Shown: positions 39,629 to 47,672 of the stretch, piece after piece
How positions within the stretch are numbered: position 1 is the stretch's first letter
Layout: each line of letters starts with the position of its first letter
NCBI GenBank assembly: GCA_003415625.1
Contig: PYIU01000004.1
Span: 1,364,001 to 1,428,000, forward strand
Origin: Aquanectria penicillioides
Taxonomy: Eukaryota; Ascomycota; Sordariomycetes; Hypocreales; Nectriaceae
Direction: 5' to 3'
DNA: 64,000 bases
Position numbers and translations under genes: made by a program
Notes under the pieces: generated by a model
Database searches by the model: none
Seen by the model: only the letters and a program-made list of their open reading frames with translations
Told to the model about the DNA's origin: nothing

Positions 39629-39756
39629 GCGGGTTTAGCTCAGTTGGGGTATGTTACAACATTAATCCCTCACTTGAAGCAAATCACTAACCTTCACTGA
39701 CAGAGAGCGTCAGACTGAAGATCTGAAGGTCATGTGTTCGATCCACATAAACCGCA
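39629..39756 (+). tRNA. tRNA-Phe(GAA) interrupted in the D-loop
   Basis: After removal of a 55-nt insert (39649-39703) the remaining 73 nt form a complete tRNA-Phe. The acceptor stem is GCGGGTT/AAACCGC with one mismatch. The D arm is GCTC-AGTTGGGA-GAGC, the anticodon arm TCAGA-CTGAAGA-TCTGA (anticodon GAA), and the T arm ATGTG-TTCGATC-CACAT; discriminator A. The internal promoter A box (TAGCTCAGTTGG) lies before the insert and the B box (GTTCGATCC) after it, and a T run follows within 15 bases. The insert lies between G20 and A21 of the D-loop, not at the standard position 37/38. The gene is otherwise intact, so it is either functional with unusual processing or a recently interrupted copy. 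Confidence 0.88.
39649..39703 (+). other. Spliceosomal-type intron-like insert in the tRNA D-loop
   Basis: Begins GTATGT, carries ACTAAC about 13 bases before its end, and ends TGACAG. These are the consensus 5' splice site, branch site and 3' splice site of short fungal mRNA introns. Length (55 nt) matches the mRNA introns of neighbouring genes (50-65 nt). Removing exactly these bases restores the canonical TTGGG-AGAGC sequence. Confidence 0.75.
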
Positions 39757-39761
39757 AACTC

Positions 39762-39770
39762 TTCTTTTTT
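39762..39770 (+). terminator. RNA polymerase III terminator of tRNA-Phe
   Basis: A run of six T (preceded by CTTC) starts about 8 bases after the tRNA discriminator base, the usual Pol III stop signal. Confidence 0.75.
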
Positions 39771-40202: not shown

Positions 40203-42386
40203 TCAACCCCACACATCCTCAAGCCACTTGCCGCCCTTCTTCGCCGACTCAGCCCAGCTTCGAGCATCAGCATCGCCCCAGTTGTTGTGCTCTTTCATAG
40301 AAGCTTCCACAACCTTGCCCACTTCCCTGGCCATTGACGCTCGGCCGCAAATGTAAACGTTGGCTCCGTTTTGGAGGAGATCACAAACGTCGCGCTTGAA
40401 CTCTCCTACGCGATCCTGCACGTAGGTCTTGGGGGTCTCCTCGGCTCTAGAGAATGCTGGAACGATTTCGAGGAGGCCATCAAGAGTAGCAGCAGTCTCA
40501 GTAAGCTCCTGACGGTAGAGGTAGTCTTCATCAGGGTGTCTGCAACCAAAGAAGAGAATCATTCGTCCAACGGGCTTTCCAATGGCCTTGAGACGAGCCC
40601 TCTCGAGGACAAAACCTCTAAAAGGAGCCATACCCGTGCCGGCACCGATCATAATGAGAGGAGTAGTACCAAGGGAGGGGAGCTTGAACTGCGACCGACG
40701 GATGCAAGCATATACCTTGCCACCTTGTAGAGAGTCTCCAGGCCCAGAAAGTGCATATGTGGGCAAGCTCGCTGGCGGGGTTGTGATGCCGTTGAGGTTG
40801 TTGGAAAGAGCATAGAGATAATTGGTAGTCACACCCCGGACTTCAGTCGGAGGATCGGCGGCCAGTGGAGTGTTATCAACACCAACGGTGATGGCAATCT
40901 TTCGAGCAGAGACGGCACTGGAGGACGAGATGGAGTAGTAGCGAGGTTGAAGGGTAGGGAGGGTCTCAACGATGTAAGACAATGGCAAGTCTTTCCAGAC
41001 AGCCTTAGGGGCTGCCAGGGTAAGTAGACGACCGAAAGTAATGTGGTTTTTCGCAATGAAGTCTGCGTATCGGTTCTTGTCTTTTCCTAGTGATGAAAGC
41101 AAGTTTGCAGCATCCTGATTTGGAGCGAAGCGAGCTAGCTGTCCCACAATCTCACGGGAGACTGGGGCACAGACCTCAAGATAATGACGGAAAAGAGCGA
41201 GCAGTGTGGTAGGACTGGGGATCTTGACAGTTTCTCCTTCTTCCAAGGGCTGAACCAGAAGTGGAATCTCGGCCCTGTCTTCAAGACCAATTGCTCTCAA
41301 CAGGACCTGCACCTCGTGATGAGGATTGATGGGGTACACTGCCAAGTGATCGCCTGTTCCATATCGGAGCTCGGGCGTATTTGAGATGTCGAGTTCCATA
41401 TGCAGGCAGTTTCGGTTGGGGGAGGTGTACAGCTCGTGAGAGGTCTGAACACGCAAGGGGCGGATCGGAGAATACGCCTTGAGAACCTTTGCCGGGCCAT
41501 GGCGATTCTCGAGTGGCTCTCCGAGATTGAGGTCGATAAAAGTAAGAGATTCGTCCTCCACAAGCTTAATGCTAGGGGTATAGGGATGTCCTGCTCCTTA
41601 AAGCCAAGCTGGTTGAGAAAAACCTCGTAGAGGTCGTCCTTCCAAGCCAGAAAGTCCTCCTCAGTACCACCATTGGCGTCATTGGCCCTGCCCACAGGCA
41701 TTAAACGCTGAGCACCGGCTTTGTCAAGTGTCTCAGTGACAACGTCAATGACTCGGTTATAATATCTGTAGCTGGTATTGCCTAGACCAAAGGCCATGTA
41801 GCGCAAGTGGGGAAGCTTAATGTCGAAGGGGCGCTTGTGAAGCCATTCCCAGAATCCCTGGGTGTTGTCACTCGGATCGCCCTCGCCGTAGGTGGAGATG
41901 ATAAAAATGGCAAGTTTTGTTTGGGGAATGAGCGCAATGGTTTCTGAATCGTAGTCGCAGAGGTCTGCACACAAGGTCTGCAGGCCAAACCGAAGATGGC
42001 ATTCCTTGGCCAATCGGCCGGCGAATGTCTCTGCTGTGCCAGACTGGGAACCCCAGAATATGACGACATCCTTGCCCTAACGCCGACGTGTAAGCTAAAA
42101 ACCTCAAAGGGACGAGCCACCGGTGTTTATGACTTACAGACTCCTCGAGCTTCTGGGCAATGTTGCGGGTTGCCTTCGCTCCTGCACCACCGGCACCACC
42201 TCTGGGCTCCATTCGCTGATACCAGACGTGATCATAAGGATCAGGTCTGTTCCAGGCAATGCCGTTTAGCATATAGGCCGCTGAGGCGACACCGACCGCA
42301 GCGAGAGCTACGACATCGGCAGCCGTCTGAGGGGGGCCCAGCTGGGACATTTTGGACACAGCCTGCGCAGCAATAGTGTTGGCCAT
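40203..42386 (-). CDS. NADPH-cytochrome P450 reductase
   Basis: Transfers electrons from NADPH through FAD and FMN to microsomal P450s at the ER. An N-terminal membrane anchor (about residues 22-42) is followed by the FMN domain (IFWGSQSGTAETFAGRLA, STYGEGDPSDNTQGFW). The FAD domain has RYYSISSSS, the NADPH site GAGTGMAPFRGF, and the C-terminus ends EDVWG with the conserved Trp. Exons 42386-42138 and 42076-40203 flank a 61-nt intron. The frame breaks at 41583-41585 (GGG): one extra base restores DIPYTPSIKLVEDES and gives 2124 nt (707 residues). The start MANTIAAQ is preferred; MSQLGPP 12 codons on is possible. It is divergent from a CYP53-type P450 starting 0.9 kb away, which suggests joint regulation. 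Whether it is the only reductase of the genome or a second, dedicated copy cannot be told here. Confidence 0.92.
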
Positions 42387-43299
42387 TTTTGCAAAGAGAG
42401 CAGTTTCAGCACCGCAGAGAAAATTGAGAAAGCTGCTATGGTCTGGCTCGACAACGGGCAAAACAAGGGCATCGGGAACCTTGATATTTCATCTTCTCCG
42501 ACGCAGCACCAACCCACAGTCATGATAATGAGGCACCCTACCCACTGCCCCCACGGGGATGACCGCAGCTCCAAAGACGGAAAGTCGCCAATCTTGCGCT
42601 GGTCAGCCGAACTCCGTTGGCTGGAGGCAATCTAGATTTTCGATAGATCAAATGCGCCCCTCGGCGTTGCCCATGGTCGGGGGGCCTGGCAATCGGCCGG
42701 AATTCCCGTCCTGGGCGTTCTCAAAAGGGACATTGCCTGTTTTGGATGTCCAGGAGAGGAAACTACCCAATCTAGACAGAGCTTCCCCACCCGTGCACCA
42801 GATGAACCAGCATCGGCTTTGGATCGCACTTGGCTCCAAAAGACGCACAAGTTTCTGCAAAGATCTGGGGAACGTGGGGTAAGGGGAAAAGGGAATGCGG
42901 CAAGAGGTTTCGCCATGCTCTCCACCACGCTTCGCCCCTCCGCCATCTCGTGGCCGTCAGCCTGTCACATCGCGAAGCCAGCTGACCATCTTCTCCCCAG
43001 ATTTAGTGGTGTTTAGATCGCTTTGGACACTTGCCCAAACAGACCCAATGCGATCGTGGCTCTGCTTTTGGGAAATTGCCAAAACGAAAGTGTCAAGAAT
43101 GCTCGCCGTGTTAGTGGCGATTGGTGCCAACGGTTCCGACCCCTCCGCACTCCATCCTCTCTTTTCTCATGCGCACAATATTATTGCGACATCTTTGAGT
43201 TGGAAAAAACATTGAGATGCGCGAATATAATTACAGACTTCTTGGCCATCCATCTTTCCCTCTCCCATCAGCAACTCGCATCACTACAGCCTGCCCACC
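42387..43299. promoter_or_regulatory. Shared divergent promoter region of the P450 reductase and CYP53-type gene
   Basis: 913 bases between the two start codons. An AATATAATT stretch at about 43223-43231 is a TATA candidate for the P450, some 70 bases before its ATG. No binding site for a known regulator was recognised. Confidence 0.45.
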
Positions 43300-44877
43300 A
43301 TGTACGCAGAGATTGTAGCTGCCGTTACGGCCACAGCCTTGATTGGCTTCTTCATCATCTATCCTGTTCTTGTCTACCTCCGAGATGCCAAGGGTTTACG
43401 GAAATATCCCAACTTTCACCCGCTGGCGGGCATCACCAATGTGCCATTCATGCTTGAGGCTCGCAAGGGTTTCCGATCGAAGACTTTGTACGAGATGCAC
43501 AAGACGCACCCTGTCATCCGTACTGGCCCCAACTCCCTCTCCTACGGCTCTCTTGATGCCATCAAGGACATCTACGGTCACGGAACCAAGTGCACCAAGG
43601 GAGAGTTTTATGAGACTCTAGCTGGTTCTCACTTCCACCTTGCTGATGTTGTCGACAAACTTGACCATCAACGCAAACGTCGTGCTCTTTCTGCTGCCTA
43701 TGCCCTCAAGAACCTCGAGAACTGGGAGTTCAAGGTCGCCGACAAGACCGAGCGCTTCATCACTGCGGCTGACAAGGCGTGCACTCTCCCTCTCAAAAAG
43801 GGATTCCGCCCCGAGCCTGCTGATCTCAACTTCGACTACCGTGCCTTTACCAACTTCTTCACGCTCGATGCTATCGCCGATATTGGCTTGAGTGAACGCC
43901 TGGGTTTCCTTGATCAAGGCCACGACCTAGTCAAGGCTGAACGCATGGACGGCACCATTCACTATGTCAACTACCGCGAATGCCTTCATGCTACTGCCCG
44001 AGCTCAGTCTATTCTTGCCTGGTCCGAGAAATGGTACAACTTTAGCGTCGAAGTCTCCAAGTGGGTCTCTCCCGACTTCCGAAAATGGTGGAAGCTCAAC
44101 GAGGGCTGGAACGACATCGTCTACCACCGCGCGACTCAAAGACTTAAGCGATACGAGGCTGGCGAGCGTCTCCCTGACTTCTTCCAGGCTATTATGGATC
44201 ACAACGATGCCAACGATTCTGGAATTGAGTGGGGCGAAGTCGTTGCCGAGGTCTCCATCATGATGAACGCCGGCTCTGATACCACTGCTATTGCAATGAA
44301 CAACGTCATGTACTGGCTGTTGAAGAACCCTTCTTGTCTCGCCAAGCTTCGAGAGGAAGTCGACGCCGTCCTTGATGCCGATGAGGTTATTGCTCCTTAT
44401 GATAAAGTCAAGCATCTCCCTTATCTGCGCGCCTGTCTTGACGAGTCGCTTCGAGTCACTCCCCCCACCACTTTCGGTCTGCCTCGCCGAACACCTGCCG
44501 AGGGCTCCAATGTCCTTGGAGACTTTATTCCCGGTGACACCACCGTCTCCATCTCCGCTTACGTCGCCCACCGAGACCCCAAGGTCTTCCCCGACCCCGA
44601 ATCTTACATCCCGGAGCGATGGTTGGGTGAGAAGGGCAAAGACCTGCAGCCATACTTCATCAGCTTCAGCGCCGGTGCCCGAGGCTGCATCGGCCGCAAT
44701 ATCAGCTACCTGGAGCAGACTGTTCTGCTTGCTAGTGTTGTGCACCGCTACGAGCTGGCTCTTCCTCACCCTGGCTGGGAACCTGAGAGGAGAGAGGCGA
44801 TGAACCTTGCTCCAGGTCCCATGCCATTGAAACTTTGGCGGAGGGACTTGGGTATTTCAGAGTTTAATGAAAAGTAG
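43300..44877 (+). CDS. Cytochrome P450, CYP53 type (benzoate 4-hydroxylase)
   Basis: Single exon of 525 residues with an N-terminal membrane anchor (about residues 5-27). The I-helix motif is MNAGSDTTAIA, ExxR is ESLR, the PERW-type motif is PERWLG, and the heme loop is FSAGARGCIG with Cys463. The N-terminal part (KTLYEMHKTHPVIRTGPNSL) and overall length resemble CYP53, the ascomycete benzoate para-hydroxylase family that feeds the protocatechuate branch of the beta-ketoadipate pathway and detoxifies plant benzoates. The head-to-head reductase supports an active monooxygenase system. Family assignment is from memory of the motif style; CYP57- or CYP65-like enzymes are less likely. Confidence 0.85.
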   Translation: MYAEIVAAVTATALIGFFIIYPVLVYLRDAKGLRKYPNFHPLAGITNVPFMLEARKGFRSKTLYEMHKTHPVIRTGPNSLSYGSLDAIKDIYGHGTKCTKGEFYETLAGSHFHLADVVDKLDHQRKRRALSAAYALKNLENWEFKVADKTERFITAADKACTLPLKKGFRPEPADLNFDYRAFTNFFTLDAIADIGLSERLGFLDQGHDLVKAERMDGTIHYVNYRECLHATARAQSILAWSEKWYNFSVEVSKWVSPDFRKWWKLNEGWNDIVYHRATQRLKRYEAGERLPDFFQAIMDHNDANDSGIEWGEVVAEVSIMMNAGSDTTAIAMNNVMYWLLKNPSCLAKLREEVDAVLDADEVIAPYDKVKHLPYLRACLDESLRVTPPTTFGLPRRTPAEGSNVLGDFIPGDTTVSISAYVAHRDPKVFPDPESYIPERWLGEKGKDLQPYFISFSAGARGCIGRNISYLEQTVLLASVVHRYELALPHPGWEPERREAMNLAPGPMPLKLWRRDLGISEFNEK

Positions 44878-45552
44878 TGATAGATAAATGACGAGAATAT
44901 GAGTAACAAATTTTGTTTTAATTTGAAAAAGCGTACAGGACCTTAAGAAGAGTTCGAGTCTGGGTATGCTTGGAGGAGCGTCCGATTGGAAGAACGCCAC
45001 ATTTCACTGCTAAGAGCTGGCAATGAGAAGATGACTACATAGTACAGATATACAAGTCTGCTAGAAAACTTCTTTGATTCGCAAATTTCGCGTGTATTGA
45101 TGTTGCCTTGTTTTCTGGAATTTCATAAAAAGTCAGTTGATTGATAGCCAACCGAGCTGGATGATTCCCTTGAAAACATTGACTAAGCCATTTGCAGTGA
45201 TGTAATATTCCTGAAACTTATACCAAACTGATATGCTTGTATTCATAAATAACTATTGCCAATGCAATTCCATAATCAAGACTAAGCGCCATTAACTCCA
45301 CAGGCAAGCATTATTCATTCATACAACTCGCCGCCGCCCAGCCTGTCTATGCCCGGTCTGCGCCCCTGAGAGCACTCGTTTACGCCCCCCGAAATTTACC
45401 ACAGCATTTATAGTGGACCTTTGAAATAAAATAGCATTATGGCCCTTTTAGATTTTCAATATTACTCCTAAGCCACCTGCGCACTAGTATTGAGCATACG
45501 TGCGATCGACATAGAGGGATTTGGTGGTGACTCCGGCCACCCCAAGCTTCCT
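44878..45552. other. Intergenic, convergent 3' ends
   Basis: About 0.7 kb of AT-rich sequence between the convergent P450 and Zn2Cys6 genes. It probably holds both 3' UTRs. No gene is seen. Confidence 0.5.
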
Positions 45553-47672
45553 TCAAGTACTGCTGTCTTGAGGCATGTTAGACCAAACGTCTTGCATACA
45601 TATGAAGTGTAAGAAACTTACGTCGAGCCCGTCGGCCAGGCATATTGTGTATCCGCCTTGATAAGAATGTTCAAAATCGCCTCTTGTTCCTGGGGGTCGG
45701 TGAACCGATCCCCGGCCATCGTTATCGCAAGACACACATATCTGTTCATGGCACTATTAGTGACGTGTTTTTGAAGGGTGGATCATGATAAAAGAACACA
45801 TACGCGTAGCATGCCACAGTACGGGAATTTGACTACAGGAATATCTGTTAGTGATGATGATGCTGTTGAAGGTGAGTGAAATTACCTCGGCGACCCCACA
45901 AACCATCCGTACATTCTTTTTTATCTCCTCGTTCGTTTCCCTGAAAGCTTTCGCCTGACCCGGGCCCAACTTTGGAGCTCGAGGATTATGAGCGGCAAGG
46001 AGAACCTGGACCAGATAGTAGTGAAGCACTCCGGTGACCACTGCGTCGTTGAGATATACGACTTCCGGAAATATCCCATTATTCTCATTGATGTACATGG
46101 GATGAAAGAACCACGGCCGCTCAACCCACCAACGTTCTTGGGTTGCTTTTAGTCTTTGCCATGTGCTGATACTTTGCTCTTCTTCACCATAGCAATAACG
46201 AACGCAGGCGGCACAGTGCAGGATGGTTAGGTTCGCGAAACTGCACCCAGTATCATCAGGTACCACAAGGCGCGATATAGTCTCCAAATCAAAATTAGGA
46301 TGAACAGGGCGAGTTTGTATGAATGCCATATGGATTTCTTGGCGAAGAGCCACCAAAAACGCCGCACGACGGAGACTGGTGAAGTCACGCAACTTCTCTT
46401 GCGCCGCAATGAAAACCCGTGTTCCCACAAGATGAGACTCAGATGCTATGTCTGCGGACATACTAGGAACATCTAGTTCCTCCATAAACCGTAGGATAAC
46501 AATGGCGGTCAACAAGTTCTCGTCCATAACGGCAGCCGTACTTGAGAGCGCAGGAATAAGTGCATCGAGACAATTTTGGTGATATTTATCGCCCACCAAA
46601 GGATCGAATTCGCTAATCCTGCTGAGGCGTTTTGCAGAGGCAGCAAGAACGGCATTCATCAATGGTGGACACATAACTGCTCGCCGAGGCACAACGGTGG
46701 CGAAGTGTCGATCACTATCGCATAAATCAAAAAGAGGGGCTAAGGTTTGGACGTAGTTTTGAAATAGCATGGCCTCCATTGGATCTTCAAGTGGCCATCT
46801 TGGAGATTCAATGTAAATACCAGATATCGCCTCGGCAACACAGTCCCCAAGCGGCGAGCGTGCTGACGATACCCGAGGGCTATCTATCCCAGGGGTAGCA
46901 GGGTCACTTGGGAGGCTGAAAAGGAGGTTGTAACCAAGATCAGAAGAGTTTAAAAAAGGATTGAAGGTGCCTCCTTCTTCAGGCATGCTCTGGGAGCCTC
47001 GGCTTGGGGTTCGACCCTGGCTTGGATCGGATCGGGGTGTTGCCCTCCATGATGTAATTGCAGAATGGCTCAGGGCACGTTTTTTGTGAGGCCGTTCAAT
47101 TTCCCTAACCAGAGGGGACGACCCCTCAAGGCTTCCTCTCCCAGGTTCTGAACGTTGTTTTTCGAGGGGTGGTGATGGTGAATGTTGCTTTGGTGACGAG
47201 GCTTGACTGGCTACCTCGTTATCAAGGGGTATATCCGTGTTGTCGATGGAGTCGAAATTGTTAGTGCCAGTACCGGAGTCGAGAAAGTGGATGACGTCTG
47301 GGGTCTCATCAACAAAGCTCAAGGTTCGGTTGGTCCTGACCCAGGGCTGATCTTGGGCGAACTGATAGTCACCCCGTTTTGCGGTCTCCAAGGCCTTACC
47401 AGACCGAATGCTGTTGCGAAGTTAAAATGACTGTGGGTACGACTGAGATGAAATTGAAGACCAACCTTGGGTTCAGGCCATGTCTAAACCGTACACTATA
47501 GCCGCGGACACATTCCGAATTATTTTTGCGGCAGTTTGAACAAGGACGGTCAGAATCGCCTGTCTCGGGCACCGGTCAGCAAGCCGAAGCACCCAAGAGG
47601 TAGGATGGACGACCTTGGCAGTGGTTGGCCAAGATGATGATTCTGATGGGGAAATTAGAAGAGGGCCTTACA
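45553..47672 (-). CDS. Zn2Cys6 transcription factor, 5' end unresolved
   Basis: Exons read from the sequence: one ending ...RYRHLKC at 47672, then 47559-47466, 47410-45886, 45832-45804, 45741-45622 and a short last exon near 45553. Introns of 112, 55, 53 and 62 nt keep frame. Splicing the first two builds RHLKCDSDRPCSNCRKNNSEC, the last four cysteines of a zinc cluster; VRFRHGLNPS and FVDETPDV follow as in ARCA-like regulators. The first CxxC pair is not found in a credible place: the first exon as read gives MSLRYRHLKC, with Leu where the second Cys is expected. Either an upstream exon supplies it or the cluster is damaged. The C-terminal region (AYVCLAITMAGDRFTDPQEQ) is typical of the fungal_trans_2 type. 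At the last junction the expected LKEAWG tail is one base out of frame. Confidence 0.75.

Follow-up and report, generated by a model that had tools for sequence, protein, structure and literature searches.

The window analysed here, 64,000 nucleotides of the Aquanectria penicillioides genome (G000:C8:1364001-1428000), very probably contains a functional gene for tRNA-Phe(GAA), which belongs to a set of nine that we found, every one of them broken at 20/21 by an intron of the U2 spliceosomal type that, judging from the sequence, would be removed by the spliceosome from a Pol III transcript. The gene occupies window positions 39629-39756 in two pieces, a 20-base exon 1 and a 53-base exon 2, separated by a 55-base intron. 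The break (20/21 in the usual numbering) lies immediately 3′ of what we take, from the consensus, to be the A box (positions 8-19), and the B box was assigned in the same way. Exon 1 terminates in TTGGG, the intron reads GTATGT...CTAACCTTCACTGACAG and exon 2 starts with AGAGC. The features, in window coordinates, are:

39629..39648, + strand: tRNA-Phe exon 1, positions 1-20; same sequence in all nine copies
39636..39647, + strand: presumed A box, internal Pol III promoter, TAGCTCAGTTGG, positions 8-19; intact, precedes the intron
39649..39703, + strand: spliceosomal-type intron, 55 nt, between positions 20 and 21
39649..39654, + strand: 5′ splice site GTATGT; GTANGT in all nine copies
39687..39691, + strand: branch site CTAAC, its putative branch A being 39690, 13 nt from where the intron ends; CTAAC in all nine copies
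39701..39703, + strand: 3′ splice site CAG; YAG in all nine copies
39704..39756, + strand: tRNA-Phe exon 2, positions 21-73, anticodon GAA; 37/38 uninterrupted
39736..39744, + strand: presumed B box core GTTCGATCC, 88 nt from the A box end
39765..39770, + strand: T6 run, Pol III terminator-like

An earlier note, made from the sequence of the window, had described a tRNA-Phe(GAA) with a 55-base insert at 20/21 and had proposed running a tRNA finder with and without those 55 bases. Its sequence and coordinates were right. With the exons joined, ARAGORN recognised a tRNA-Phe(gaa) of 73 nt; in the unspliced stretch it recognised none, even with anticodon-loop introns allowed. Run on the window, ARAGORN called no tRNA, and Rfam gave no match at gathering score on the unspliced window. 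The acceptor stem carries a G5-A68 mismatch in the ARAGORN drawing, and the other eight copies share it in their exons.

The 53.76-Mb genome (13 contigs) yielded nine tRNA-Phe loci, all split at the same nucleotide. A search with the joined 73 bases returned nine places, each matching only positions 20-73, and the DNA extracted around them contained an identical 20-base exon 1 upstream of each exon 2, with 54-56 bases between. Six loci are on contig C1, one on C2 and two on C8; four of those on C1 form a tandem array (G000:C1:2020577-2021280) with a spacing of 216-217 bp. The many intact copies that the earlier note had named as evidence against a functional gene were searched for in the assembly and none was found: the uninterrupted junction, as a 31-base intronless form with up to three mismatches, had no match there. 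An intron-independent 15-base pattern spanning the D-stem and anticodon arm, allowed up to one mismatch and hence blind to Phe genes with two or more changes in those bases, found the nine loci and one other place (reversed control, 1), which we judged from its sequence not to be a tRNA. Rfam returned at least 62 tRNA matches in the genome (63 of 2343 candidates scored), and among the 48 of 62 typed by ARAGORN, whose isotype labels are partly unreliable (an Ile-like gene was labelled Thr, for example), there was no further tRNA-Phe, 14 being untyped. These tRNA counts are lower bounds.

The exons of the nine genes average 0.99 identity and vary at only two of 73 positions, 49 and 65, which covary: the pair is A-U in three copies (L001-L003 of L001 to L009) and G-C in six. 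Within the introns, the branch site is identical in all nine, and identity is 0.89 at the 5′ splice site, 0.93 at the 3′ splice site and 0.81 in the stretch between branch and 3′ site, while the intron middles average 0.56 and the flanks of the loci 0.51 upstream and 0.57 downstream. Two intron families can be distinguished, six introns ending in CTAACCTTCACTGNCAG (family 1: L001, L003, L004, L005, L006, L009) and three ending in CTAACCATCTCTAYAG (family 2: L002, L007, L008), both of them mixed in the tandem array. Intron middles are 0.63 and 0.80 identical within the two families but only 0.46 between them, compared to 0.49 (sd 0.06) for shuffles. Such a combination of kept exons with introns that have decayed except near their signals is the pattern of a functioning, old intron. 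Since exon type does not follow intron family (L002 combines a family 2 intron with the A-U exon), exchange between copies is suggested. The intron was probably gained once at 20/21, reached all copies by spread or by inheritance and then diverged save at the signals, and the families are so diverged that we expect the intron in relatives. To test for introner behaviour, for which many near-identical copies would be expected in other genes, we searched with the last 17 nt of the family 1 introns, allowing two mismatches, and found six tRNA-Phe genes and one other place (7 matches; reversed control, 5); with this single 17-base piece of family 1, no introner spread was seen.

The excision test asked every candidate intron of the form GTRNGN...CTRAY...HAG, 40-110 nt long, to yield a tRNA in ARAGORN once its flanks were joined. 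Nine of 661 distinct candidates gave a junction-spanning tRNA, every one a tRNA-Phe(gaa), in 661,786 nt of DNA over both strands, a total that counts overlapping loci repeatedly and includes the loci retrieved by tRNA-Phe match; in the window alone one of 142 candidates did so. A chance match to intron motifs was rejected on the nine loci together with this test, and a fresh insertion, an assembly artefact and a pseudogene on the existence of nine separate loci with conserved exons. The earlier note had left it at either a functional intron or an element that had just inserted; its reading of the layout is supported by the sequence tests, but recent insertion is rejected, because the intron is in all nine loci, its families have diverged beyond recognition except near the signals and no intact copy was found.

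If the nine loci were dead or dying, a working tRNA-Phe gene would have to lie elsewhere, unassembled or missed, and we regard this as very unlikely. The tRNA searches do give lower bounds, and the 53.8-Mb, 13-contig assembly may be incomplete; moreover, according to a 2014 review, a eukaryotic gene with an insertion in the D or T arm is mostly one among many synonymous genes and is taken for a pseudogene, the true exceptions being in nucleomorphs and Cyanidioschyzon merolae (PMC4090602). Dead copies are, however, hard to reconcile with nine loci whose exons are undecayed and whose sole variable base pair is compensated while their introns have diverged, with promoter boxes and terminator-like runs in all nine, or with the zero count of intact junctions.

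The nine introns carry the signals of the spliceosomal class. Their 5′ splice sites are GTATGT (five), GTAAGT (three) and GTACGT (one), and so all conform to GTRNGT; CTAAC, which conforms to CTRAY, is present in every one and puts the branch A 12-13 nt from the 3′ end; and the 3′ splice sites, CAG in eight and TAG in one, are all YAG. The mRNA-type layout reported in the earlier note (GTATGT, branch site, CAG) is hence confirmed and recurs in all nine copies. For comparison, we took nine host mRNA introns, eight from tubulin genes and one from the P450 reductase gene of the window (42077-42137): these have GTRNGN starts, YAG ends and, in six of nine, CTAAC, an agreement that is partly built in because a motif-favouring expression was used to select the eight from tubulin. 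Applied to six of eight tubulin loci (L172-L177, without L178 and L179), the expression gave 16 distinct candidates, of which eight were kept, where the joined frame gave tubulin by its known motifs, and eight dropped. The tRNA introns, at 54-56 nt against 55-94 nt, are at or slightly below the short end of the mRNA range.

The P450 reductase gene adjoining the tRNA encodes an NADPH-cytochrome P450 reductase with 85% identity to a Cylindrodendrum protein (best 120 of 1993 matches listed); among the matches listed, identity is 80-82% to Neonectria, Ilyonectria, Thelonectria and Dactylonectria, 76% to Clonostachys and at most 75% to Cosmosporella and Fusarium. By this one gene the fungus is close to Nectriaceae of this kind. 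At 41537-41591 of the window (- strand) the reading frame shifts relative to homologues, and no gap of intron size accompanies the shift, so the gene may be damaged in this copy or an indel may be present in the assembly. The reductase is grouped at 40206-47421 with a cytochrome P450 and a fungal transcription factor, perhaps as a small metabolic cluster.

The Pol III signals are retained as well. The A and B boxes are present in all nine genes, 87-89 nt apart, a run of four to seven Ts begins 4-9 bases beyond each gene, and each folds as a cloverleaf after excision. TTTT occurs in none of the nine tRNA introns and in four of nine mRNA introns, a contrast that is weak because the nine tRNA introns are related and TTTT is missing from five of the nine mRNA introns too. 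Splicing by the spliceosome normally goes with Pol II transcription, and one could accordingly suppose that Pol II reads these loci as parts of longer RNAs that are spliced as such, the tRNA being cut out later. We consider such a route extremely unlikely, given the intact boxes at their 87-89-nt spacing, the T-runs behind every copy and the unrelated flanks of the nine loci (upstream identity, 0.51); besides, U6 of fission yeast is an example of a Pol III RNA that undergoes splicing.

Canonical tRNA introns at 37/38, including that of fungal tRNA-Phe, likewise interrupt a nuclear tRNA gene, but here the break is at 20/21, bears spliceosomal signals and leaves 37/38 uninterrupted. The tRNA-Phe of Neurospora has a 37/38 intron of roughly 16 nt, about one third the length of the introns described here, and comparison with that gene suggests that an ancestral 37/38 intron may have been replaced. 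No intron of the TSEN type, one base 3′ of the anticodon, is present in the nine genes, CTGAAGATCTGA being uninterrupted in all of them.

Could the tRNA splicing endonuclease instead cut the insert at a non-canonical place, through a bulge-helix-bulge (BHB) motif as in archaea and C. merolae? Position 20/21 is among the known non-canonical archaeal sites, and introns outside 37/38 also occur in nucleomorph and red algal tRNAs, those of nucleomorphs in the D arm as well, as the same review describes (PMC4090602). Furthermore, six of the nine copies have a complete 4-bp central pairing at the junction, with two or three of its four pairs G-U. In the other three, however, this central helix is broken, the inner and outer 3-bp flanking helices occur in none of the nine, nor does the alternative orientation, and no copy has the full arrangement of 3-nt bulge, 4-bp helix, 3-nt bulge and flanking helices at the junctions. 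A BHB motif, moreover, needs no GTANGT, CTAAC or YAG, yet these are the conserved parts, and other tRNAs of the genome keep their 37/38 introns: long Rfam matches correspond to Ile, Asn and Arg genes with introns beside the anticodon, so endonuclease-type introns are present in the same genome. Cleavage of the tRNA-Phe insert by the endonuclease is therefore highly improbable, and removal by the spliceosome is the reading we favour. The archaeal and C. merolae introns differ from the present ones in depending on BHB motifs, for which tRNA-Phe failed the test here; for nucleomorph tRNA introns the mode of splicing is stated as unknown in the review (PMC4090602), and a study of nucleomorph small RNAs, in the sections consulted, mentions no spliceosomal tRNA intron (PMC6461891).

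To look for other cases, we searched with TAGCNNAG, TGGCNNAG and TGGTNNAG as the A box, each with GTANGT and CTAAC behind it; these matched 11, 10 and 10 places (6, 11 and 14 in the reversed controls). On excision only the nine tRNA-Phe genes among these 31 pattern places gave tRNAs, in a search confined to those three A-box patterns, to CTAAC as the branch site and to introns just behind the A box. The intron-bearing D-loop pattern had no match in viral contigs. The uninterrupted D-stem/anticodon-arm pattern found one viral locus and 60 loci of a prokaryote collection, with uninterrupted D-loops in all 61, most of archaeal type; these loci say nothing about relatives among the fungi. One of the contigs, binned as a Flavobacteriales genome (L106), has a eukaryote-like uninterrupted tRNA-Phe, perhaps through contamination. 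Searches of open-access literature found no nuclear tRNA gene described as having a spliceosomal intron; subscription papers were mostly outside these searches, so such a description may exist.

Among known systems, the nuclear rDNA of lichen ascomycetes also has mRNA-type introns in a gene other than an mRNA gene, but those lie at many positions of a Pol I rRNA, unlike the tRNA introns here. Two fungal RNAs, U6 and U3, come nearest. U6 snRNA of S. pombe and other fungi has an mRNA-type intron within a short structured Pol III RNA. The usual explanation of the U6 intron is insertion through the spliceosome, of which U6 is part, whereas the present intron sits in a tRNA and interrupts each of the nine copies found. 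Fungal U3 also has a spliceosomal intron with a branch site in a small structured RNA, with a mean distance from branch to acceptor of 15 nt (PMC5832005), compared to 12-13 nt in the tRNA-Phe introns, but it is a snoRNA and not a tRNA. According to that paper, frequent interruption by an intron is known for no small structured RNAs other than U3 and U6 (PMC5832005). In the present genome, two diverged U6-like loci, L148 (G000:C7:1730381) and L149 (C1:3831993), are without intron and are followed by T-runs (47 of 2978 candidates scored), and two U3 snoRNA loci, L170 (G000:C13:744404) and L171 (C10:3783662), match the full fungal U3 model in 271 and 267 bases.

The intron may also influence how the precursor folds. 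The predicted probability of the anticodon stem is 0.00-0.04 in the nine precursors against means of 0.54-0.68 for shuffles (300 per intron, signals kept), although the mature tRNA itself reaches only 0.21 in the same program. For L001 to L009, respectively, 10, 2, 15, 18, 4, 4, 3, 11 and 33 of 300 shuffles were at or below the native value, in a test devised after the fold was seen and on copies that are related. In family 1, ACCUUCACUGAC is predicted to pair with GUCAG and UGAAGGU of exon 2, and in family 2 GUCU or AGUCU reaches the same arm by pairing with AGAC or AGACU. Total folding energy is ordinary in several copies, with 23, 4, 44, 66, 9, 3, 34, 5 and 27 of 300 shuffles as stable as the native form. 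Misfolding of the anticodon arm by the intron is hence a hypothesis and a lead. A broader scenario, which we put forward tentatively and consider rather unlikely as a whole, is that an essential isoacceptor passed from the tRNA endonuclease to the spliceosome, and that the 3′ part of the intron, by pairing with the anticodon arm in both families, acts as a folding switch that would hold the pre-tRNA open and nuclear until the spliceosome acts; splicing would then be nuclear and G37 modified before export, without yeast-style cytoplasmic splicing and re-import. In yeast, as the review describes, it is in the cytoplasm that tRNA-Phe is first seen in spliced form, and it has to re-enter the nucleus for methylation of G37 (PMC4090602). 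A nuclear spliceosomal route would remove the need for this return.

The gene anatomy points to the following course. Pol III would transcribe from the A and B boxes and stop at the T-run; the spliceosome would recognise GTANGT, CTAAC and YAG, the 54-56 nt would leave as a lariat and TTGGG would be joined to AGAGC; and RNase P, RNase Z and CCA addition, the general finishing steps of tRNAs, would complete the molecule. No nuclear tRNA other than tRNA-Phe(GAA) is known to decode Phe codons, and some of the nine copies must therefore be processed. Because no intact copies were found and given the anatomy of the genes, tRNA-Phe production appears to depend on the spliceosome and not on the tRNA-cutting enzyme.

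Gene finders can miss such tRNAs, and the silence of ARAGORN and Rfam here implies that isotypes missing from annotated fungal genomes may be disguised cases. The finding would add another kind of Pol III RNA handled by the spliceosome, and the nine natural copies offer material on intron gain outside mRNA genes and on whether splicing needs Pol II. The introns of tRNAs and of mRNAs are taught as separate worlds with separate enzymes, yet this essential tRNA family seems to have passed entirely to the spliceosome, and, if our reading is true, the translation of Phe codons in this fungus would depend on splicing.
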